Below are positions 1,511 to 25,227 of a stretch of 43,916 nucleotides of DNA, piece after piece. Both the position numbers and the translations under genes were made by a program. The DNA is from a virus: the IMG/VR virus record IMGVR_UViG_3300029813_000026, positions 1 to 43,916 of that record; one strand, given 5' to 3'. Position 1 is the stretch's first letter. The number at the start of each line of letters is the position of its first letter. Under the pieces are notes generated by a model. That model searched no databases. It was not told the DNA's origin and was given only the letters and a program-made list of their open reading frames with translations.

Positions 1511-2325
1511 TACTTAACCTTAAACATTGGTTGAGCGTTACCCATAATAATACTAACTTGGCTACCACTTTCAATTGCAAGCTTTTGGTTGTCTAGTTGC
1601 TTCATGGCTAGGTATTGGTCTGGGTTCATTCCAATAGCTCTCATGTATGCTTTATCTGCTTCTGCAGATGCCGTTTCTGCATTTTTTCTAGCTTTTTCTG
1701 CTTTAACGCGTTCATTTTGTGTTTTCACATTCTGCTTTTGAACACCTGTTTGTATAGTTGCATCAATTACCGCTTGTGGTGGCATAACTTTACCTACTGT
1801 TACTTTTACTAACTGAGTTGGTATGCCTTCGGCTTTTAGAAATTTTCTAACCTCTTCTGATACAATCTCCTGTAATGCATCTGTAGTCCTTCCATTTGTT
1901 GTCATATCAAACATTTTGTGATTTTTTGTAAATGATCTTACTGAATTTCTTAGTGGCTCTCTTACTTTATTTTTATACCACTTATGTTTTCCAAATTTTT
2001 CAACGAGAATAGGCGTTTTACCCTCTTCGTGCTTAAACGTTAAGTGCAACTTGAAGTCTACAGGGTTATTATCCTGCGTCACTAGGTCATCAAACACCTC
2101 GTCAATGTTAAATGGAAGCAATGTTACGCGCTCAACTGATGTACTCCAAACAGTCCATGTAAGACCTGTCTTAACTGGTGTTTCATCTACTCCACCATGC
2201 CCAAAAATCCACGGCTTATAAATAAGAACAGCCTCTTCACCTGCATCAACACTAGACGGGCTTAAACATCCCGTAAACATAAACATCGTAATCACACTTA
2301 ATAGTGCAAGTTTAACTTTTCTCAT
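1510..2325 (-). CDS. SPFH/Band 7-like lipoprotein
   Basis: A 271-residue protein with a lipoprotein signal peptide. A charged MRKVK start, a hydrophobic stretch and the lipobox FTGC place the lipidated Cys at residue 20. Residues about 25-185 look like an SPFH/prohibitin domain (GEEAVLIYKPWIFG, later LVKVTVGKVMPPQAVIDA). An Ala/Lys/Glu-rich coiled coil covers about 195-230. A phage SPFH lipoprotein could scaffold the envelope, protect FtsH substrates or exclude other phages. All three are inference. It has its own promoter (2353-2382) and a strong AAGGAAAG ribosome site, and it is coupled to the prepilin-like gene downstream. This suggests a separately expressed accessory unit (moron). Confidence 0.7.
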   Translation of the reverse strand: MRKVKLALLSVITMFMFTGCLSPSSVDAGEEAVLIYKPWIFGHGGVDETPVKTGLTWTVWSTSVERVTLLPFNIDEVFDDLVTQDNNPVDFKLHLTFKHEEGKTPILVEKFGKHKWYKNKVREPLRNSVRSFTKNHKMFDMTTNGRTTDALQEIVSEEVRKFLKAEGIPTQLVKVTVGKVMPPQAVIDATIQTGVQKQNVKTQNERVKAEKARKNAETASAEADKAYMRAIGMNPDQYLAMKQLDNQKLAIESGSQVSIIMGNAQPMFKVK

Positions 2326-7660: not shown

Positions 7661-8278
7661 TTAGCTTAATAATTCTCTGATTCTACTGCCACCATAAGCA
7701 CCTGATGTAATCTCTAATACTTTTTCAAGTGGTAATTCTGCAACTGTGATTTTATTTGATTCCATGAATTGTGAAACTCCCATCTTGCAAGCACCTGTTA
7801 ATAGTCTGTATTCTTCTACTGAAACCGTTTGTTTATCCTTGATCTCTTTTATCAATTCCGATAAATCAAAGTTTTCTTGCATATACTTAAAATTTACATC
7901 TGCAATTGCTTCTCTTAGTGTCTCTCCGTGTGAGTAAAATTCTCCTTTTTCTACTACGAAACATTTTTTTAGCTTTTCTATTTCCCCACCGCCCATGAAT
8001 CGTGCTGAGTAAATTATAAAGCCATCTTTTTCTTTTGTTGAGTTTACTATCATCGTGTATCCATCAACGTGCTTTAGTGATAATTCCATCCCTCTTGTTG
8101 TGATGCTTGTTAGGCTTCTGAGGTCGACGTTTCCTTGGTTCTCGAACTTGATATCGGTTGTGATGCTTGTTAGGCTTTCGAGGTCGACGTTTCCTTGGTG
8201 CGTTACTATAACCACTCCGTTCTTTTTATAGAACTTGTACTGTTTTTCTTTTAATAGTTTTTCTAATTCTGTCTTCAT
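7661..8278 (-). CDS. LRR-like repeat protein, 205 aa
   Basis: Residues about 28-70 hold two 20-residue repeats built on GNVDL(E/R)SLTSITT. This is the unit seen in the leucine-rich-repeat proteins of many phages. The C-terminal part (FYSHGETLREAIADVNFKY) matches the conserved tail of that same group as I remember it. Two copies are few; relatives often carry more. A role as a protein-binding accessory or decoy is inference. The repeat is also visible at DNA level (8097-8139 and 8157-8199). Confidence 0.65.
   Translation of the reverse strand: MKTELEKLLKEKQYKFYKKNGVVIVTHQGNVDLESLTSITTDIKFENQGNVDLRSLTSITTRGMELSLKHVDGYTMIVNSTKEKDGFIIYSARFMGGGEIEKLKKCFVVEKGEFYSHGETLREAIADVNFKYMQENFDLSELIKEIKDKQTVSVEEYRLLTGACKMGVSQFMESNKITVAELPLEKVLEITSGAYGGSRIRELLS
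8097..8199. repeat. Two 43-bp direct repeats, 60-bp period
   Basis: Copies at 8097-8139 and 8157-8199 differ at about two bases and begin GTTGTGATGCTTGTTAGGCT. They encode the two LRR-like units. The near-identity suggests recent duplication or copy-number change by recombination. Confidence 0.85.
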
Positions 8279-8303
8279 CTCAATTCCTTTTTATGTTATA
8301 CTT

Positions 8304-8378
8304 CTAAAATATCTTTTCGCCTACAGCGTTCAGATAACCTTCTAATTTGTCAAACCACTTTTCTACTTTTAATTTCAT
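8304..8378 (-). CDS. Possible 24-residue peptide
   Basis: Encodes MKLKVEKWFDKLEGYLNAVG and EKIF, an amphipathic helix. A GGGAG ribosome site stands six bases upstream. It fills the gap between the LRR-like and membrane protein genes. Small size limits confidence. Confidence 0.35.
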   Translation of the reverse strand: MKLKVEKWFDKLEGYLNAVGEKIF

Positions 8379-8402
8379 TTCGTACTCCCATACGTTTTGA
8401 GA

Positions 8403-9221
8403 TTAAAGAGTTTCGATTGCTTCCTTTACTAATTTCATTTTTGATAGACTGTATGCGTTTATGTCTCCATTCATTACATACCCTAATTTTGTAGGTACGT
8501 TTTTATTCAATGGCTTCTCATCTACTATCACAGTTACTATAAATTTGTTCCTAGTTAAGTAGCCTAGTTCCAATCTCTTTTTCTCGATTAGCTGTAACAG
8601 TTCCCTCGCTAATTCAGCGTTCTCGCTATTTAGAACAGCGTTCCTAGCTTTTTTCTTTGGTTGTTCCGCTTTTATTGCTTCATGTTCTGTGTTCTCCTTT
8701 TTTGGTGATGTTGTTCCCGCAACTCTAACTTTTGTTATCGCTAAAATCTGAGCTAACATTATAAGCACTAAGGCAAAAGCTTGAACGATTATTTTAATCC
8801 AAGTGATAAACATTGGCTCTTTTTTATCAACCACCGTCTCGCTCATAGAGTTTCTTAATAACTCCATTTGCTTCATTGTTTTTTGTATCGTAATCGGGTA
8901 TTTTTTATCTTTAATGCTGTCAAGTGTTTCAGTCAAAACTTTTAGCTGTTTCTCTTTTTCACTCTCTACTTTTTTATCTTCGATCAAATCAATACTTCCC
9001 GATGCCAAACTAAACAATGCACTTCCTACTACTACTAAAGAAGCTGATGTTGCTAGAATCTCATGTTTGTTATACCAAAAGTAAATCGCTACGGCTTCAA
9101 TCATCAATGAATACACTAAGCCACTCTCATATCCTGATACATCTCGCCAAAAACTGATAGAGTGCATCTGCAAGAGTATTGTTGTTCCTATTATGATTGT
9201 GTAGCTTAGTGTGTGTTTCAT
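8403..9221 (-). CDS. Multi-pass membrane protein, 272 aa
   Basis: I place the start at ATG 9221, one base after the upstream stop and with GAGAGG in range; a GTG at 9239 would add six residues. About three N-terminal hydrophobic helices (to residue about 80) precede a charged coiled coil (about 85-130). A further helix follows (IIVQAFALVLIMLAQILAI, about 145-165), then a Lys-rich cytoplasmic C-terminus with helices. No family recognised. The topology suits a sensor or exclusion protein, but that is speculation. Confidence 0.6.
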   Translation of the reverse strand: MKHTLSYTIIIGTTILLQMHSISFWRDVSGYESGLVYSLMIEAVAIYFWYNKHEILATSASLVVVGSALFSLASGSIDLIEDKKVESEKEKQLKVLTETLDSIKDKKYPITIQKTMKQMELLRNSMSETVVDKKEPMFITWIKIIVQAFALVLIMLAQILAITKVRVAGTTSPKKENTEHEAIKAEQPKKKARNAVLNSENAELARELLQLIEKKRLELGYLTRNKFIVTVIVDEKPLNKNVPTKLGYVMNGDINAYSLSKMKLVKEAIETL

Positions 9222-9829: not shown

Positions 9830-10264
9830 ATGATACACGAAATTATAAACCCAAGTGATGCTTACACGATTGAGACTGATGATATGGCTTTACTTACTGC
9901 TTCCATATTTGCTCTTGGTGAAGGTATGTATGCTACAAGATCAGATGATACCGATTATGAAGTTCCAATGACTGCTTTTGGTGGTGATAATGCTATTGAG
10001 TTTTTTAAGAAAGAGTTTGATTTTGACTTCGCTGATTATGTTGGTGGTAACAAAGTTAAAATTGGAGAGTGCTTATCTACTGTTTGCCTTGGTGATGCTG
10101 ATGATAGATTACTTTACTTTTCAGCACTTGACAAAATTGAAGATGAAGCCAAAAAAGAAGAGTTTGTCAAAGAGTGGTATGATAAAAAACAATCTTCTAT
10201 GAATGGTATCGGTCAAAGAGCTATGGCTTTGTCAAAAGCGTTAAAGGGTAGCACCAATGAGTGA
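9830..10264 (+). CDS. Hypothetical early protein, 144 aa
   Basis: First gene of the rightward operon, with an AAAAAGGATAGA ribosome site. Acidic and soluble. Residues about 1-60 (ALLTASIFALGEGMYATRSD) and the FDFDFADYVGG segment resemble small phage proteins found just upstream of RecT modules. It overlaps the DUF1351 gene by 8 bases. Function unknown. Confidence 0.65.
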   Translation: MIHEIINPSDAYTIETDDMALLTASIFALGEGMYATRSDDTDYEVPMTAFGGDNAIEFFKKEFDFDFADYVGGNKVKIGECLSTVCLGDADDRLLYFSALDKIEDEAKKEEFVKEWYDKKQSSMNGIGQRAMALSKALKGSTNE

Positions 10265-11228
10265 TTTAATAACCCTAGATAAAAGAAAAAGCATTGCCAC
10301 TCTAATCGGCAATGATGAGGTGCAAGAATTAACGCTATCACTTGAAGCTGAACTTGCTAAACCTGAGTATAACTTTATTGTTACTCCTGAAACCGTTAAA
10401 GATGCTAAAGGTGTTATGGCAGACCTTAATAAAATCAAATCTCAAATCAAAGACTTTTCTAAGTTCAAGGTCGAGCAAGAGAGTGACGACATCAATAAGT
10501 TCAAAGGCACTTTCAAAGACTTCGAGGCTATGTGTCAAGCTAAACGTGATGAGATTGAATCTAAGGTTAAAGTCTTCACTGATAAATCAAAAGAAGCCCA
10601 TCGTACTAAACTTGTTACAGAGCTTAACCGTCTTTATGATGAGGCTGATATTCGATTAGAGTTTCGTGAAGTTAATGTTGAGCCTTTAGTTAATGCTACG
10701 GGTCTTACTTCTATCGGCGACCTTGTTAAGTCTTCTCGTGATAAAGTTGAGGCTATGATAGATGTTTCTAAAGGTAAGCAAGCTCAAGAAGATTTACGTA
10801 TCAAAGAAGCTGAAATCCAACGCAACAAAGAAATTCAATATGCTATCGAAGCAGACCGACTTAAACGTTCCGAGCAGGATGAAGCTAATCGCGTAAAAGA
10901 ACGTGAACGATTGGAACGAGAAAAGCAAGATGCACTAGAACAACAACGGAAAGATTTAGAACAAAAAGACGTTCCAAGTAGTTCTATTGCTGTTCCTACT
11001 GAAACAAAGCAACCTGTTCCCACATATACAGAACCACAAAAAGGAACTGTTGAGGAACAGAAAGAGCCTGTAAAAGTTGAAGGTAAAAAAGTTGTTCGTG
11101 TTGTGGCTACTTTTGATATTCCAGTTCCTACAAATATACCTGATGATGCGGTTGCTAATAAGGTCAAAAAGAGTCTTCTTGAATTTGGTATTGATGCTAG
11201 TCAACTTGTTTCTGTTGAGGCTTTGTAA
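10257..11228 (+). CDS. DUF1351-like recombination-associated protein
   Basis: A 323-residue, largely helical protein. The N-terminal ELAKPEYNFIVTPETVKDAK and MADLNKIKSQIKDF, with the following coiled coil, match DUF1351 phage proteins that are encoded beside RecE/RecT. A long charged coiled coil covers about 180-235, then a Pro/Thr-rich linker. The C-terminal beta-alpha domain (VVRVVATFDIPVPTN ... LEFGIDASQLVSVEAL, about 275-323) is typical. It probably assists recombination. The biochemical role is unproven. Confidence 0.75.
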   Translation: MSDLITLDKRKSIATLIGNDEVQELTLSLEAELAKPEYNFIVTPETVKDAKGVMADLNKIKSQIKDFSKFKVEQESDDINKFKGTFKDFEAMCQAKRDEIESKVKVFTDKSKEAHRTKLVTELNRLYDEADIRLEFREVNVEPLVNATGLTSIGDLVKSSRDKVEAMIDVSKGKQAQEDLRIKEAEIQRNKEIQYAIEADRLKRSEQDEANRVKERERLEREKQDALEQQRKDLEQKDVPSSSIAVPTETKQPVPTYTEPQKGTVEEQKEPVKVEGKKVVRVVATFDIPVPTNIPDDAVANKVKKSLLEFGIDASQLVSVEAL

Positions 11229-12142
11229 TGTTAGAATTTCATGAAGATGATTTTATTGATGTTGAGGTTGAAAATGTTTTAGATCATCTCAATAATGATG
11301 TTCTAGTTCTTGATGGCTTGCATTTCAATACCATGCTTGAAGGATTATCAAATGAGATGTACCACTCTCATGAAGCTACAAGTAGCACACAACTTCCCCT
11401 CATGGGATTGTCAAATACTATCTACGATAATCGTAAGTTTTTTCAAGTTCGCAAAAATGCTTACGATATTGGCTCTCTTATTCATGATGCTATCTTGCTT
11501 CCCGATTTAGTTGATAAAGACTACATCGAATGTGAGACAGTTGGCATGAGTACGAAGCAAGCCGATAAGCAACGTGAAGAAAACCCTGATAAGGTAGTTG
11601 TCGGTCAAGGTGATATTGATACTGCTAAGACTAGAGCCAAGCTAGTTCACCTAATTTTTGGTTGGTTACTTTTTAACCGTAATACCAAAAAGGAAGTGTC
11701 ATTTTTCCATAAGTACGAAGCGTTTAATGTTACAATTAGAATTAGACCTGATATTCTTAATCTTAATTGGGGCATGTTGCAGGACTTCAAAACCACTAAA
11801 GCCGAGAATCAAAGAGAGTTTGAGAAGCTTATCGAGCCTTATAACTATCATGTGTCTTTAGCTTTCTACTTTGATGCCTTGGTTTCTATGGGTCACAACA
11901 TGATAGTTGAGCGTTGTGGTTGGATATGCCAAAGCAATAGTGAGCCTTATCTTGTCTTTGGTGTTCGCATCACTGAGGAACTACTTGAAAAAGGTCGGTC
12001 AATTTATCAGAATCGTCTTAAGGACTATTTTGAGTTTAAGCAAAATCAAGCACAACATGGTGAAGACGACATAAATCTTCTGTTCGATGATCTCTTTTCA
12101 TATTCAGCACATAGTTTTGAATATAGAAAATCTAATTACTAA
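11228..12142 (+). CDS. RecE-like PD-(D/E)XK exonuclease
   Basis: A 304-residue nuclease of the DUF3799/RecE C-terminal group. The start module (LSNEMYHSHEATSSTQL) precedes the core motifs IGSLIHDAIL with H86, RIRPDIL with D175, and LQDFKTTKA with D186 and K188. These are the metal and catalytic residues. It would degrade one strand of double-stranded DNA ends to create single strands for the RecT/Bet annealase next door. Start and stop codons abut or overlap those of the DUF1351 gene. Confidence 0.85.
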   Translation: MLEFHEDDFIDVEVENVLDHLNNDVLVLDGLHFNTMLEGLSNEMYHSHEATSSTQLPLMGLSNTIYDNRKFFQVRKNAYDIGSLIHDAILLPDLVDKDYIECETVGMSTKQADKQREENPDKVVVGQGDIDTAKTRAKLVHLIFGWLLFNRNTKKEVSFFHKYEAFNVTIRIRPDILNLNWGMLQDFKTTKAENQREFEKLIEPYNYHVSLAFYFDALVSMGHNMIVERCGWICQSNSEPYLVFGVRITEELLEKGRSIYQNRLKDYFEFKQNQAQHGEDDINLLFDDLFSYSAHSFEYRKSNY

Positions 12143-12154
12143 AAAGGATAAATT

Positions 12155-12799
12155 GTGGATGAAAATAAAAACCTACCTATTGAGAAACGTGATGATTCTA
12201 GCCCTGAGTGGCTAACTGTAGAGGCTAAATCTGTTATCATGAAACAGTTTTTTCCCCCTAATACTTCAAATGAGGATATGATTTTTTGCATGAATGTTGC
12301 TAAAGAGTATAATCTTAACCCTATTACTCAGCAAATTTACTTTGTTCCAAGACGATCAAAAGTCGGTAATGATTGGGTTGAAAAAGTTGAGCCTCTTGCT
12401 GGTCGTGGGTCTTTCCTTACATTAGCTCACAGAACCGGCAAATTTGGTGGCATTGAAAGCGAATGTTCTATTAAGGATATTCCAATGTTAGATAAAGGCA
12501 AGTGGACTGTTACGCAAGACTTAGTTGCTACTGCTACCGTTTATCGAACCGATACTGAAAGACCTTTTGTTGTCGAGGTTAATTATTCTGAATATGCTCA
12601 AAAAAAGCAAGATGGAACTGCTACTAAGTTTTGGAAAGACAAGCCACATACCATGCTTAAAAAAGTTGCTGAAAGCCAGTGTTTGAGAAAAGCTTTTGAT
12701 ATCACAGGTCTTCATGATGAGGCAGAACTTGGTAGAGGCACTAAGACTGAAGTAGAACCCCAAACAAAACCAAAAGAGCTTCCAAAGATGGAGGCATAA
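12155..12799 (+). CDS. RecT/Bet-family single-strand annealing protein
   Basis: A 214-residue protein starting at GTG after AAAAAGGATAAA. The core fits the phage Bet family: VAKEYNLNPITQQIYFVPRR, then VEPLAGRGSFLTLAHRTGKF and GGIESE, later WKDKPHTMLKKVAESQCLRKAF. It anneals complementary single strands and pairs with the RecE-like exonuclease. The acidic tail (about 190-214) is disordered. Confidence 0.88.
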   Translation: MDENKNLPIEKRDDSSPEWLTVEAKSVIMKQFFPPNTSNEDMIFCMNVAKEYNLNPITQQIYFVPRRSKVGNDWVEKVEPLAGRGSFLTLAHRTGKFGGIESECSIKDIPMLDKGKWTVTQDLVATATVYRTDTERPFVVEVNYSEYAQKKQDGTATKFWKDKPHTMLKKVAESQCLRKAFDITGLHDEAELGRGTKTEVEPQTKPKELPKMEA

Positions 12800-13665: not shown

Positions 13666-13736
13666 TGAGTAAATCAACCCTAATAAAAAAGCGTTTAAAA
13701 CGAGAAAAAAATAAGGATAAGAAAGATGGGATTTAA
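13665..13736 (+). CDS. Possible 23-residue basic peptide
   Basis: The ATG shares a base with the dUTPase stop (TAATG). The peptide MSKSTLIKKRLKREKNKDKK ends DGI and overlaps the SSB start by 11 bases. Strongly basic. It may only serve to couple translation of dUTPase and SSB. Confidence 0.4.
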   Translation: MSKSTLIKKRLKREKNKDKKDGI

Positions 13737-14280
13737 TAAAGTAATACTACAAGGTAATCTTGTCGAAGATATTTCTCTTCGGTACACTCAAAGCGGTACA
13801 GCAATCGCAACTTCTAAAATAGCAGTTGGTAAAAAATTTAAAAAGTCTGATGGTTCACAAGGCGAAAAAACTTTGTGGCTTAAATTTACTATGTGGGCTA
13901 GATCAGCTGAAATCGCCAACCAATATTTGAGAAAAGGAAGCAAAGTTCTCCTTGAAGGTTCTCTCGAAAATGAGGATTACACTGACAGTCAAGGTGTTAA
14001 AAAGTATGGGTTTAATCTTAATGTTGAGAGTATGACTATGCTTGATAGCCGTACAGATAACACCCCAAAAGACCAACCATATCAACCACCTCAACCTCAA
14101 CACGAAACCATACCACAGGACAATGCAAGTCAACACGTTCCACAGCAACAGCCACAAGGTCAGCCTCAACAGCCTAGCTATCAACCTCAACAGAGTATTC
14201 CTGAGTATGATATAGATGAGGACAATATTCCGTTCAGTCCTATTGGCTTGCAGTATCCTATGATATTGCATTGTATGTAA
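13726..14280 (+). CDS. ssb: Single-stranded DNA-binding protein
   Basis: A 184-residue SSB with an OB fold at about 1-110 (FNKVILQGNLVEDISLRYTQ; WLKFTMWARSAEIANQYLRK; VLLEGSLENEDYTDSQGV). A Pro/Gln-rich linker (about 115-165) and the acidic tip DIDEDNIPF follow. In most bacterial SSBs that tip ends the protein, but here 14 more residues (SPIGLQYPMILHCM) follow it. It coats single strands made by the RecE-like nuclease and should interact with the annealase and host replisome. Confidence 0.88.
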   Translation: MGFNKVILQGNLVEDISLRYTQSGTAIATSKIAVGKKFKKSDGSQGEKTLWLKFTMWARSAEIANQYLRKGSKVLLEGSLENEDYTDSQGVKKYGFNLNVESMTMLDSRTDNTPKDQPYQPPQPQHETIPQDNASQHVPQQQPQGQPQQPSYQPQQSIPEYDIDEDNIPFSPIGLQYPMILHCM

Positions 14281-15283: not shown

Positions 15284-15716
15284 ACGTGATTTCTTCCCAA
15301 AAAGAACAGGAATAAAAGGCGAACCAATAAGCCAAAAAAACAAAGACCGCATAGAGCCTCGAATCAAAGAGGTTTTTGTTCATCAAAACAGCGATAAAAC
15401 TTTAGGCTTTAAATGTCAATCAAACTTGGATAAGGTTCACGAAATGCCTTGTTTGGTTTGTGGTTGTTATGGTGTTGAGGCTCATCATGTGAAGAATTCT
15501 GATATTGTTGGTCGTGATGATCGCTTTCTTGTTCCGTTGTGCAAAAAACATCATACTGGTTTAGTTATTCATGATCGTGGCGAAAAGCATTTTAGTGTTC
15601 ATGGTACGCCTAAAGCTTTTTATGAGAAGTTTCCAAAAGAAACACTTTTGAAGATTGCTAAGGGTATTTATGTGGGTGATTTGCTATGCCACTCTTTTGT
15701 GGTAAAATACATTTAG
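15264..15716 (+). CDS. Ref/DUF968-like HNH nuclease
   Basis: A 150-residue protein with a TTG start; a second TTG at 15276 would give MAKRDFFPKR and may be the true start. A basic N-terminal arm precedes the His-Me/HNH core: PCLVCG (C63, C66), EAHH (H74, H75), VPLCKKHH (C93, H96, H97) and a late FSVHG. This layout matches DUF968/Ref-type recombination nucleases. P1 Ref is a RecA-dependent nuclease, and lambdoid relatives sit in the recombination/nin region. It is expected to process recombination intermediates alongside RecE/RecT. Confidence 0.7.
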   Translation: MDSILAKRDFFPKRTGIKGEPISQKNKDRIEPRIKEVFVHQNSDKTLGFKCQSNLDKVHEMPCLVCGCYGVEAHHVKNSDIVGRDDRFLVPLCKKHHTGLVIHDRGEKHFSVHGTPKAFYEKFPKETLLKIAKGIYVGDLLCHSFVVKYI

Positions 15717-15917: not shown

Positions 15918-15943
15918 TCACACGAAATCACCCACTTAAATTT

Positions 15944-15972: not shown

Positions 15973-16374
15973 ATGAACGAATTTATTGTATGGGATAAAA
16001 ACTTTAAAAAGTTTATTGACTATAAGGTATGCGGAATATTAACTGATGGTGGTATCGCCATATTTAAAGAAGGTCATTTATCGTGTATTGATTATGAAGA
16101 CCACTTAGAAGCATTTAGCTGTGTAGGCAAAAAAGACATCAACGACAAAAAAATATATGCTGATTCAAGTATAGTTGAGTTTTATCTAACTCTATCACAT
16201 AACGAAATAATCAAAAAAGGTTTTGTTAAATTCAACAAAGAAGATGCTTGCTATGAAATACTAGTCGAAGATGCATTTGATGGATATGATAAATATAATT
16301 TTATTGATTATGAGATAAGAAACTTAAAAGTAATCGGCACTATTCAACAAAAACCAGAGTTAATGAAAGTGTAA
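15973..16374 (+). CDS. Divergent YopX-like protein, 133 aa
   Basis: Begins MNEFIVWDKNFKKFIDYKV, as in YopX proteins (xxFRVWDxxxxxFxD), followed by FSCVGKKDINDKKIYADSSI, the GLKDKNGxxIYEGDI core in divergent form. The C-terminus EIRNLKVIGTIQQKPEL matches the family end (VIGNIYE). A second, closer member is at 4916-5260. Confidence 0.75.
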   Translation: MNEFIVWDKNFKKFIDYKVCGILTDGGIAIFKEGHLSCIDYEDHLEAFSCVGKKDINDKKIYADSSIVEFYLTLSHNEIIKKGFVKFNKEDACYEILVEDAFDGYDKYNFIDYEIRNLKVIGTIQQKPELMKV

Positions 16375-16508
16375 CCGCCCGAAGACGGCACAAGGATAGA
16401 AGAGTGATGAAGCTCTTTTGTCGCAGTTGTGGTTGATAATGCCACTGTTCTACGAACGGCATGATTATATTGGTTTGTTGTTTGAATGTCAATGTGGAAA
16501 GGATTATT

Positions 16509-17801: not shown

Positions 17802-18695
17802 ATGATCTATATATACATTCCCGAAGAAGGATATGGTGGTTGTTATGCCACAAGCGATAAGAGCCTTAAAGAAGTTCCTATGGCTTTTAAAGAGGTTAAG
17901 TCCTCTAACATTAGAAGGGTTGAGTGGGAAACAATCGGCATATACCATACTTTTAATATTCCCTACTTTGACAAAAAAGATGTTCCAAGCTATCTGTATA
18001 AGAATGGCATAAATGCTAAAATCGTTGAGGAACATGAGTTTAATGCTATATGTAAAGAGTTCACCAAGAACATAGTTCCTACAAATGAACTGGTGATTAG
18101 AGATGCCGTAAAAGAATATCTTGACAAAAAATATGATATTGCTCATATCCAAGATGAATACACTCATGCCTCTCTCCCTGTCCGTGCTGACCTATTCGCT
18201 GTGTCGCATGATAAAAAAGTTATCACGGTTGAGGTTAAATCAGATCGAGATACATTCACTCGCTTAAAGAAGCAACTTGAAGAGTACACAAAGTTTTCTC
18301 ACATAGTCTATGTTGCCATAGATATTGCACATCTTGTTAAATTTAAAAAAGGCTTTCCAAGTTACTACGGTGGAATATTGGTTTATGAAGATGGTGAGTT
18401 GATTCTTCATTCCGCTTGTCATAGCTCTAAAACAATTGAGGCTTCAAGGTTGCTTTGGAAACAAGAACTACAGCAATTTCTATGCTTCAAAGGTAGCTTT
18501 ACTAAGTACTGCATTGATGAGCTTGAATATTTTATTGAGAATATCTTTACTGTTTGTGAACATAAAGCTATTTCAGAGTTCTTATTTGTTAATAGATATT
18601 TGAAACATAAAAATGATTTTAAACATTTAATTAATGACTATGAATATAAGCAAAACTTGATTGAAAAACTTGTGAAAGAAAAAAAGAAGATGTAA
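17802..18695 (+). CDS. sce7726-like PD-(D/E)XK nuclease fusion
   Basis: A 297-residue protein. After an N-terminal region of about 85 residues with no recognised motif comes a nuclease-like core: LPVRADLFAVSHDKKVITVE then VKSDRDTF, giving D130, E144 and K146. LKKQLEEYTKF supplies the following Gln (Q158) and helix. This arrangement is that of sce7726/MmcB-type restriction-like endonuclease folds. It lies directly upstream of the HUH Rep gene, so it may process replication intermediates or act in defence or counter-defence. The function is inferred. Confidence 0.6.
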   Translation: MIYIYIPEEGYGGCYATSDKSLKEVPMAFKEVKSSNIRRVEWETIGIYHTFNIPYFDKKDVPSYLYKNGINAKIVEEHEFNAICKEFTKNIVPTNELVIRDAVKEYLDKKYDIAHIQDEYTHASLPVRADLFAVSHDKKVITVEVKSDRDTFTRLKKQLEEYTKFSHIVYVAIDIAHLVKFKKGFPSYYGGILVYEDGELILHSACHSSKTIEASRLLWKQELQQFLCFKGSFTKYCIDELEYFIENIFTVCEHKAISEFLFVNRYLKHKNDFKHLINDYEYKQNLIEKLVKEKKKM

Positions 18696-18704
18696 AAAGT
18701 AGAA

Positions 18705-18724
18705 CCTCTCTCGCCAAAGAGAGG
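18705..18724 (+). other. Hairpin in front of the Rep gene
   Basis: Perfect 7-bp inverted repeat CCTCTCT (18705-18711) and AGAGAGG (18718-18724) with a 6-base CGCCAA loop. It lies 41 bases before the Rep start in the 70-base gap. HUH Reps commonly nick at or next to hairpins, so this is the best candidate origin by position. It could equally be an mRNA structure. Confidence 0.5.
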
Positions 18725-18765
18725 CAAAGAACCAACGAAAGACCAAATTCTATGAAGGAACGTAT

Positions 18766-19887
18766 GTGACATTATATAGCAAAACCTGTACCAATGTCAA
18801 ATTCGTGGCTTCTAATGAACACGATGCCCTAATACAGTACCGAAAAAAGAACGCACAAAAGCGTTTTGACTACTACGATCTCGCACATAACAACTCACAC
18901 AAACAAAAGATGCTCATTACATTCACATACTCGGACGAGAACGCACTTTTTAAGATGCAAGTGATAAATGACATGCGTAACCACTTTAATAAGCTTATAC
19001 GCAATTTACGCAACGATAACATTAAGTTCTTTTCAAACATAGAGCTTGGAGAGAATTTTGATAACCCTCATGTTCATATTCAGTTATGGTTCGATGATGA
19101 TGCTGATAAATTCGATATAAGCCGTGTTTATGACAAAGTGGTGGCTAAGTATGGATTGATGTCTAGTCGTTGCGTAGTGAGCTTAGATGAGCGTGAAACT
19201 GATATGTTTCATTATGTGGTGAAGGACTATCGCAAAGATATTGGTGATAGTGAGTTGATTGAACTGAATAGCTGGAAAAGTTTTTATCGTAAAGAGCTTG
19301 GTAAGAGTATTCGATTTACTAGTCATAGTAAGGGTGAGCATAGTAAGGGACTTTATAAGAGGGCTTATGGTTTAGGGATTAAGAAATATGATCTTGATTG
19401 GCTCATTGAACGTGGGTTTGTCTCGGTTGAGTTGGTTGTTTGTGACGAATTGCTGGCTTTGTGTTGTGTTGAGCGGTGTTTTGGTAGTTTTTTAAGACAA
19501 GTATATAACAAGTGGATAGCTATTGAATTTACTTCTTATGTGCTTTCTTTTGAGGCTCATATTGACTTTGAGTATTGGGTGTTTGGGTTTATTGATCGGC
19601 TTCTATCTATCTCACAACAAAATTTAATTCAAAGGAGTCAAAATGTTTATATTGTTAATTTTTCAGGAGTTTGGTTGGAGAATGTGGATGGTTATGGTCG
19701 AGAGAGTTCGACCACCGCCTACCCTGCTTCTATTAATTCACCGTCTATCATCCACCATGCGTTATCTGGGATAATTGTTTCTTTTGGTAATGGCTTATTT
19801 AATTCAATCTGCACAACAAACTCACCTTCTATCATTGTTTCTTTGGCTTTATCTATATCGCTAAAAATGCCTTGTAACTCCCAATGA
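18766..19887 (+). CDS. HUH-type replication initiator (Rep)
   Basis: A 373-residue ORF with a GTG start after GAAGGAAC. Motif I is MLITFTYSD (49-57). Motif II is NPHVHIQLWF, with the HUH pair H102/H104. Motif III is FHYVVKDYRK, with Y150, K153 and a second Tyr at 155, close to the YVAKYVNK pattern of phiX174-type gpA. It should nick one strand at an origin, form a phosphotyrosine link and start rolling-circle replication. Residues beyond about 295 overlap a convergent gene and a strong antisense reading frame, so the natural C-terminus may be shorter or newly acquired. Confidence 0.75.
   Translation: MTLYSKTCTNVKFVASNEHDALIQYRKKNAQKRFDYYDLAHNNSHKQKMLITFTYSDENALFKMQVINDMRNHFNKLIRNLRNDNIKFFSNIELGENFDNPHVHIQLWFDDDADKFDISRVYDKVVAKYGLMSSRCVVSLDERETDMFHYVVKDYRKDIGDSELIELNSWKSFYRKELGKSIRFTSHSKGEHSKGLYKRAYGLGIKKYDLDWLIERGFVSVELVVCDELLALCCVERCFGSFLRQVYNKWIAIEFTSYVLSFEAHIDFEYWVFGFIDRLLSISQQNLIQRSQNVYIVNFSGVWLENVDGYGRESSTTAYPASINSPSIIHHALSGIIVSFGNGLFNSICTTNSPSIIVSLALSISLKMPCNSQ
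19643..19774 (+). CDS. Possible 43-residue peptide
   Basis: A very good AAAGGAG site five bases before the ATG gives MFILLIFQEFGWRMWMVMVE followed by RVRPPPTLLLLIHRL. It overlaps the end of Rep in another frame and the end of the 73-residue minus gene. The ribosome site is the main support. May be spurious. Confidence 0.25.
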   Translation: MFILLIFQEFGWRMWMVMVERVRPPPTLLLLIHRLSSTMRYLG

Positions 19888-19940
19888 TTCCCGTCTTCAC
19901 TTTTACTGCTTCCTGTATAGTATATTAAACCATCTTTCAT
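19719..19940 (-). CDS. Hypothetical protein, 73 aa
   Basis: Last gene of the late operon. It has well-formed protein character: LIYYTGSSKSEDGNHWELQG, then FVVQIELNKPLPKETIIPDN and AWWMIDGELIEAG. It starts 2 bases after the amidase stop. It convergently overlaps the Rep ORF by 169 bases. Function unknown, perhaps linked to lysis. Confidence 0.6.
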   Translation of the reverse strand: MKDGLIYYTGSSKSEDGNHWELQGIFSDIDKAKETMIEGEFVVQIELNKPLPKETIIPDNAWWMIDGELIEAG

Positions 19941-24034: not shown

Positions 24035-25227
24035 ATAAAAACTACTGTCGATGCTTTTGATTTTTCGCCTATTCCTAGTGAATAAGCTTCTATATTTATT
24101 GAGTTTAGTTCTATTTGTGTTCCTGAGAAAATACCGCCTGATGCGCTTACTATGTCATCAACTACACCATCAACTCCCGTTCTTGTAATTCTATCTCTTC
24201 TAGGTAGTATTGAAAGGCCCACGATAAAAGGCTCTCTTTCTAAAAAGTAATTTTCTACACCTGTTATAATATTCGCTTGCACTATTGCTATATCATCTAC
24301 TTCCAGACCAGATACTCTTACATCAAACCCTAGCCTGTCTATTGGAAAAGCATTTACTAAAGCATTCGCTGGTCTTCTCGTTGGTATCCCTGCTTGATCT
24401 AACTCTATAGAGTCCAAAACTGCTTGCAATTGTGCAGTAGTTGGTATTCCGTCTGGGCTTCCTGAACTTGCTACTGTAGCTTCTGCATAAACATCAACTT
24501 GACCTGGGCAATCTGAAGTATATGGATAAACATTAATTATCCCTACAACCTCTTCTCCCCATTGCTCATAATCTGCATAAGCCCCACCTTGTGGTCTTTT
24601 TTGGAATCTATCAATTATTCTTTGTCTGTACGCTTCTGTTGATTCTGCATTTGCCCCTGTAGTTATTTGAGAGTTTACTACTGCATCTCTTGATACATTT
24701 GGAAGTGGGTTTGCAAAAGATACAATATCCCCTATTTCTAGGTTTCCAATGGCCCCCGCACCACCTCCGCCTGATTGATCTGAAACCGCTCTTATGTTTA
24801 CTTGAACTGTCGCTGCATTTAATAAAACTGATGCTATCGTGATATATGTGACCCCATTATCTGCATTTACCAATTGCGTTCCAGATGATAACGATCCTGT
24901 TTGATTTGTTACTGCAATATCTATTAATAATTCTGCGTTTGTGGCGGCTACTGGGTCTCCTATCCCTATTAATCTTCCCCATTCTATAATTGGGATAATT
25001 GTTTTGCCATTAATGATTGTTTCTTTATCGCTTGCAGTACTTACAAACATTTGTAGAAATATAAAGCCACCATACTTATAAAGAAGCATAAATACACCAG
25101 CTATAACTTTTGAAAGTACTCTTAAAAATGATTTTGGCATAAGCGGTATTGTTTGCCCCAATGATGCCTCTAGTTGAGCAATTATATTGTCGCTTATCTC
25201 TTTTGTTGTTGGTGTTTGTAGGCTCAT
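24031..25227 (-). CDS. Baseplate wedge protein J (Mu gp47-like)
   Basis: A 398-residue Baseplate_J family protein. N-terminal SLQTPTTKEISDNIIAQLEA, then the central signature SLSSGTQLVNADNGVTYITI, and NAESTEAYRQRIIDRFQKRP followed by GGAYADYEQWG. The C-terminal beta domains are conserved. With gp46 and gp48 it forms the wedge of the contractile-tail baseplate. Confidence 0.9.
   Translation of the reverse strand: MSLQTPTTKEISDNIIAQLEASLGQTIPLMPKSFLRVLSKVIAGVFMLLYKYGGFIFLQMFVSTASDKETIINGKTIIPIIEWGRLIGIGDPVAATNAELLIDIAVTNQTGSLSSGTQLVNADNGVTYITIASVLLNAATVQVNIRAVSDQSGGGGAGAIGNLEIGDIVSFANPLPNVSRDAVVNSQITTGANAESTEAYRQRIIDRFQKRPQGGAYADYEQWGEEVVGIINVYPYTSDCPGQVDVYAEATVASSGSPDGIPTTAQLQAVLDSIELDQAGIPTRRPANALVNAFPIDRLGFDVRVSGLEVDDIAIVQANIITGVENYFLEREPFIVGLSILPRRDRITRTGVDGVVDDIVSASGGIFSGTQIELNSINIEAYSLGIGEKSKASTVVFI

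Follow-up and report, generated by a model that had tools for sequence, protein, structure and literature searches.

The rep gene of the phage genome analysed here probably encodes the phage's HUH-family replication initiator, and the small hairpin just ahead of it is best read as the terminator of a leftward antisense RNA of ~70 nt that would block Rep translation. The genome is an IMG/VR virus record, IMGVR_UViG_3300029813_000026, which was analysed over its whole length of 43,916 bases (the window). Plasmid textbooks describe both HUH initiators and copy control by antisense RNA; judged from their sequences, eight phages most likely share such a layout, known until now mainly from plasmids. 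The gene and its parts are placed as follows.

18766-19887 (+): HUH Rep gene, an ORF of 373 codons with a conserved part at residues 1-276 (PF23343, identity with relatives, AlphaFold core)
18754-18759 (+): Shine-Dalgarno GAAGGA of rep, within the region complementary to the predicted antisense RNA (sequence)
18919-18939 (+): motif I, TFTYSDE, residues 52-58 (translation, alignment)
19063-19077 (+): motif II, NPHVH, residues 100-104, the HUH metal site (translation, alignment)
19213-19236 (+): motif III, Y150VVKDYRK157 (alignment)
19594-19887 (+): C-terminal extension, not conserved, residues 277-373, partly antisense to ORF 19719-19940

The rep ORF is open throughout and begins with GTG, with the Shine-Dalgarno sequence ahead. 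In a profile search its product matched PF23343 (REP_ORF2-G2P) at an E-value of 3.3e-8 and 34.1 bits, above the curated cut-off of 27.8, which the Reps of the related contigs G014 and G015 likewise exceeded in separate scans. Motif I, HVH and YVVKDYRK, which a sequence-only reading of this DNA had assigned to the protein, were all found in place. Across six aligned Reps, His-102 and His-104 of the HxH metal site are invariant, as are Tyr-150, Lys-153, Asp-154 and Tyr-155 of motif III. The AlphaFold model has an HUH core at residues 20-130 (pLDDT about 80-93), with HVH on a strand and Tyr-150 on a helix. A fold search of the PDB gave individually weak E-values; several of the leading matches were HUH nucleases (AAV Rep, Vientovirus Rep, a REP-associated transposase, and geminivirus and circovirus Rep). 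The corresponding sequence search of the PDB returned chance matches only. Homologues and the structural model both end at about residue 276; the residues beyond have a pLDDT of about 30, and the convergent ORF 19719-19940 overlaps the 3' part of rep in antisense. By motifs, fold and family, Rep is an HUH-family protein, for which nicking and covalent attachment are the predicted activities.

A tblastn search of 50,697 phage records with Rep returned only the Microviridae initiators (VP4), at about 30% identity over 75-150 residues. The plasmids searched for Rep homologues gave no match, scans that used Rep or the exonuclease as a single protein yielded no relative, a VP4-dominated alignment search recovered only contigs of about 2-8 kb, mostly Microviridae-sized, and none of the 41 pattern matches of a loose genome scan was a true relative. 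True relatives were reached among viral contigs through a hand-made codon pattern for ELGxxxxNPHVH followed by alignments; in bacterial genomes this pattern gave chance matches only. Seven relatives were obtained, all on uncultivated-virus contigs from several metagenomes and 38-45% identical to the window Rep.

G014: 33.1 kb contig with portal, head protease and a long tape measure
G015: 30.7 kb contig with sheath, terminase and portal
G016 (L133): 44.0 kb contig with head protease
G017 (L134): 19.4 kb contig with portal; the sequence upstream of rep is cut by the contig end
G018 (L136): 25.9 kb contig with structural genes in common with G015
L147: 4.5 kb fragment
L151: 8.1 kb fragment

All the relatives whose type could be told are tailed phages, both sheath-bearing and siphovirus-like. 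rep is the sole gene common to the six longest genomes, whose structural genes are otherwise mostly unrelated, and in the relatives it is the last or nearly the last gene of the early operon, facing the late genes; in G015 the early and late operons abut at 24150/24151. Exonuclease and SSB or RecT-like genes stand alongside rep in at least G014 and G016. Separately, G015 carries its own complete DNA polymerase III beta sliding clamp (L131:13482-14543, minus strand), which suggests use of the host polymerase III; ORF 2965-4041 of L151 resembles, by eye, another beta sliding clamp; and near-perfect tandem repeats at 8261-8647 of G016 (in L133) give rise to a repetitive ORF (FNRFECDCFGLVFHI...).

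In a tree, the eight Reps form one clade (100/100) separated from VP4 by very long branches. Profile comparison of the Reps gave a probability of 94% against VP4 and of <1% against P2 gpA, PM2 P12 and pUB110 Rep, each of these three being represented by a single sequence; in the low-power hhalign test of Rep against the single P2 gpA sequence the value was 0.5%. These figures, together with the tblastn result, bear out the earlier impression that the protein is nearer to the Reps of ssDNA phages than to P2 gpA. A Rep taken up only recently from a filamentous phage or a plasmid fits them poorly, the Reps being a distinct phage-borne clade far from VP4 and without a plasmid match. With VP4 of the Gokushovirinae type (PF23343), the tailed-phage Reps have in common the HUH fold family, an aligned motif I (TxTYxDE), an aligned ExG...PHxH stretch, and the first Tyr and the Lys of motif III. 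They differ by the absence from all eight of the N-terminal PCGxCxxC cluster that is invariant in six aligned VP4s. Motif III is YxxxYxxK in VP4, whereas the Reps (YxxKDYxK, or YxxKDYxN in two) have an Asp at the second catalytic Tyr and the next Tyr five residues on. The short span of the 30% identity, the separate clade and the occurrence in tailed phages further set the two apart. P2 gpA and PM2 P12 are also HUH initiators of dsDNA phages with a PHxH motif, but they are far larger and show no detectable profile similarity outside that stretch.

The replication genes and the structural module of the window have different affinities. Identical 15-nt repeats at the two ends indicate that the window is probably a complete circle, in which the following regions were recognised.

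22226-43830 (-): myovirus structural module in common with SppYZU01-like phages (protein comparison, synteny)
10257-11228 (+): DUF1351 early gene (profile match)
11228-12142 (+): RecE-like exonuclease (DUF3799; PHROG 412 exonuclease VIII; profile matches)
12155-12799 (+): RecT annealing protein (profile matches)
13726-14280 (+): single-strand binding protein (profile match)
17802-18695 (+): sce7726-family/MmcB-like putative nuclease, directly upstream of rep (profile matches)

The structural module, which also includes gene 58-765 and in which sheath, tape measure, capsid, portal and terminase were recognised, is syntenic with Shewanella phages SppYZU01 and SFCi1, Acinetobacter phage Scuro, Oceanospirillum PD0307, Aeromonas AeroV_348, Pseudoalteromonas PY6, and Vibrio 97.13 and 367.14. 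Most proteins of the module are 34-80% identical to those of the SppYZU01-like myophages; the annotated phages of that group differ in having DNA polymerase, helicase and mostly primase genes. In a gene-by-gene comparison, the polymerase, primase and helicase genes of three structural relatives had no homologue in the window, and a PF23343 scan of eight structural relatives gave no match. The replication module of the window is altogether different from the one in its structural relatives. Profiles of DNA polymerase A and DnaB matched neither the window nor the five longer Rep relatives, a search that covered these two families on metagenomic fragments, where replisome genes may sit off-contig. 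No alternative initiator was recognised in the window. As the sequence-only reading had it, the RecE-like nuclease, RecT and SSB occupy the same rightward early block as rep, which also holds a dUTPase and a weak match to the HNH-type DUF968. An assembly chimera was considered and rejected, given the continuous GC content and the same placement of rep in independent contigs. The window further encodes a Band 7/SPFH-domain protein at 1513-2325 (-) (PF01145, E 3e-17) and contains a 17-nt inverted repeat at 15666-15682 and 15925-15941 (94% complementary, 242 nt apart).

The hairpin ahead of rep, CCTCTCT-CGCCAA-AGAGAGG at 18705-18724, is a perfect 7-bp stem, just as had been claimed. As bare DNA it is unremarkable (z -1.2; 22 of 200 shuffles fold equally well). 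In a terminator scan it comes out on the minus strand as GCCTCTCTTTGGCGAGAGAGGT-TCTACTTTTT, followed by TTCTACTTTTT, a weak terminator tract. Taken as a hairpin with a T-tract downstream of an antisense promoter, it is equalled in score by 6 of 400 random stretches from the same genome. The predicted elements are as follows.

18771-18800 (-): antisense sigma-70 promoter TTGACA-18-TATAAT (12/12), its -10 overlapping the first rep codons (promoter scan)
18704-18725 (-): hairpin and T-tract, the intrinsic-terminator-like end of the predicted antisense RNA (terminator scan; equivalents in six relatives)
18693-18765 (-): predicted ~70-nt antisense RNA over the rep ribosome-binding site, with ends estimated from promoter and terminator

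Two promoters scoring 12/12 occur in the whole window genome, where 0.15 are expected. Since the -10 of the antisense promoter lies on the first rep codons, its RNA would start at about 18765 and cover the rep Shine-Dalgarno sequence; hairpin and T-tract lie at +40..+61 from this start, and the predicted 3' end roughly coincides with the upstream gene's stop codon. The predicted RNA matched no Rfam family. A second small terminator-like hairpin is found on the same (-) strand at 18865-18850. The other perfect promoter, TTGACA-17-TATAAT at 16464-16492 (-), lies in the interval that separates ORF 15973-16374 from ORF 16461/16509-17006; as RNA, the sequence downstream of it folds better than shuffles (z -2.6), has no Rfam match and is possibly another small antisense RNA.

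The promoter is present in all eight phages, with an invariant TATAAT and a -35 element 17-18 nt away, and a hairpin with a T-tract follows within about 100 nt in 7/7 phages that have the sequence, in L136 by eye.

Promoter, 12/12: TTGACA-18-TATAAT in the window; TTGACA-17-TATAAT in G014 and L147
Promoter, 10/12: TTTGCA-18-TATAAT in G015 and L134; TTGTCT-17-TATAAT in L133; TTGCTA-17-TATAAT in L136
TATAAT with a weaker -35: TTGTTT-17-TATAAT in L151
Hairpin and T-tract in G014: +54..+88
Hairpin and T-tract in G015: +59..+84
Hairpin and T-tract in G016: +36..+66
Hairpin in L147: +23..+55, 15 bp, with a T-run
Hairpin in L151: +15..+59, then T8

The hairpins of L147 and L151 are textbook examples of 13-15 bp with T-runs. 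Random stretches of the same genome scored equally high in 3, 3 and 7 of 400 cases for G014, G015 and G016, respectively; for the interrupted hairpin of G018 (L136) the automatic test gave 286/400. The hairpin sequences differ completely between phages and their loops have no common motif, while position and T-tract are kept. In every phage the whole Shine-Dalgarno sequence falls within the predicted RNA, whose 5' end lies at the rep start codon, whereas the upstream genes differ between phages and overlap with it is nil or marginal. An architecture retained while its sequence varies is the expected outcome of selection for an antisense RNA, although the phages share ancestry at the rep locus and the eight cases are only partly independent.

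Rep appears to start at AUU in the relatives. In all seven, the rep frame contains no ATG, GTG or TTG ahead of the conserved N-terminal helix, and an in-frame ATT ATA follows the Shine-Dalgarno sequence by a few bases; in the window, where rep has its GTG, the ATT falls in another frame. ATTATA is also the promoter -10 read from the other strand, so that it may be conserved for either of two reasons. Conservation of the ATT is by itself no proof of its use as a start, and the lack of other starts is the stronger argument for it. A programmed frameshift from an ATG or GTG in another frame was rejected as the source of the missing starts, since L133, L134 and L136 have no ATG or GTG near the Shine-Dalgarno sequence. 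Among known genes, infC of E. coli starts at AUU and is regulated through discrimination by IF3 (PMC5472188).

Hairpins near rep serve as origins in some rolling-circle systems, and the perfect stem in the window could likewise be a double-strand origin nicked by Rep, in a system recently taken up from a filamentous phage or plasmid, which is how the sequence-only reading had tended to see it. We regard this as improbable: what is kept among the Rep-sharing phages is the hairpin's place relative to the antisense promoter and T-tract, not its sequence or any loop motif; the phiX/pC194-like nick core CTTGATA is absent between 15.1 and 21.2 kb of the window; no plasmid matched Rep; and the annotated nick sites of P2, PM2 and phiX174 lie inside the initiator gene. 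The hairpin is thus better explained as the terminator of the antisense RNA. An equally improbable proposal is that promoter-like and hairpin elements only terminate readthrough from the convergent late operon and shield the early operon, with no regulatory RNA. rep does face the late operon, and the hairpin at 18865-18850 on the same strand could serve such an end, but a terminator alone would not call for the invariant TATAAT, with a -35 element spaced by 17-18 nt, that stands next to it in eight phages.

If the leftward RNA exists, its main target might be the 3' end of the upstream gene, or it might act as a primer or replication inhibitor like lambda OOP, rather than on Rep translation. 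In lambda, the OOP promoter stands next to the initiator gene O and the RNA overlaps the end of cII (PMC3349717), and the window RNA would end about where the upstream gene stops. This alternative is unlikely, if the least so of those weighed here, because coverage of the Shine-Dalgarno sequence from the rep start codon is common to all the phages and appreciable overlap with an upstream gene is not. Finally, Rep might be a non-essential passenger or an assembly artefact in a phage that replicates by another route, as the closest structural relatives do with their own polymerase module and without Rep. We consider this very improbable, given that rep recurs as the closing gene of the early operon on independent contigs of several metagenomes and that the circle is apparently complete, with rep as the only initiator recognised in it.

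Blockage of Rep translation by an antisense RNA thus stands as the preferred reading. We infer the initiator role of Rep from the lack of polymerase A and DnaB matches and of counterparts to the polymerase, primase or helicase genes of three structural relatives, from rep being the sole common gene and from its closing the early operon. In the mechanism we propose, Rep would nick an origin and attach to the 5' end through Tyr-150; host replication proteins would then copy the genome, and the RecE-like nuclease, RecT and SSB would be available for concatemer formation. By the example of the annotated nick sites of P2, PM2 and phiX174, this origin may lie inside rep or close to it. A hybrid mode of rolling circle and annealing is possible. 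The leftward RNA, transcribed from the promoter inside the rep start, would cover the Shine-Dalgarno sequence and block translation, so that the supply of Rep would be limited as genome copies rise; the AUU start of the related phages would also keep Rep low. As to the origin, a scan of synonymous-site conservation had its top stretch in the AT-rich, poorly aligned C-terminal part and was not convincing. A perfect 7-bp hairpin near the end of conserved rep, TGGTCGA-6-TCGACCA at 19694-19713, has no T-tract on either strand and is a candidate origin structure. CTTGATA occurs 16 times against 8.4 expected at 5.9-41.9 kb of the window, with none near rep.

The layout has partial parallels in known systems. 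The countertranscribed RNAs of rolling-circle plasmids are short antisense RNAs over the region before rep (PMC4485353, PMC5703833); RNAII of pMV158, which lies before repB, has an unpaired 5' tail and an intrinsic terminator (PMC4485353). The phages resemble pMV158, at the sequence level, in a promoter opposite rep and a short RNA with an intrinsic terminator. They differ in that the predicted RNA has its 5' end on the first codon of rep and extends over the Shine-Dalgarno sequence, no CopG-like repressor was seen, Rep falls outside the pMV158 family and the genome is a dsDNA of 30-44 kb. Lambda OOP, a 77-nt self-terminating antisense RNA whose promoter lies beside the initiator gene O and whose target is cII (PMC3349717), is likewise short, self-terminating and adjacent to a phage initiator gene; in contrast to the rep ribosome-binding site and HUH nuclease here, it hits cII and O works at a theta origin. 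Searches of an open-access library gave no report of antisense control of an HUH initiator in a tailed phage, which is weak evidence of absence.

On a wider reading, to which we give slightly less than an even chance, a tailed-phage lineage has adopted a complete plasmid-style rolling-circle replicon, with an HUH initiator under a countertranscribed RNA and, in most members, an IF3-discriminated AUU start. Together these would act as an intrinsic brake on copy number, which could take the phage from early copying driven by Rep to concatemers formed later by recombination, in a cassette that moves between tail types and replaces the polymerase-primase-helicase module. If rep does start at AUU in the seven relatives, as it appears to, these genes would join the very few known to be initiated at AUU. 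The layout also raises the question of why a phage should limit its own initiator. If correct, it would explain how replication starts in phages without recognisable replisome genes, and the presence of one conserved cassette across tail morphologies would tie the control of phage replication to that of plasmids.
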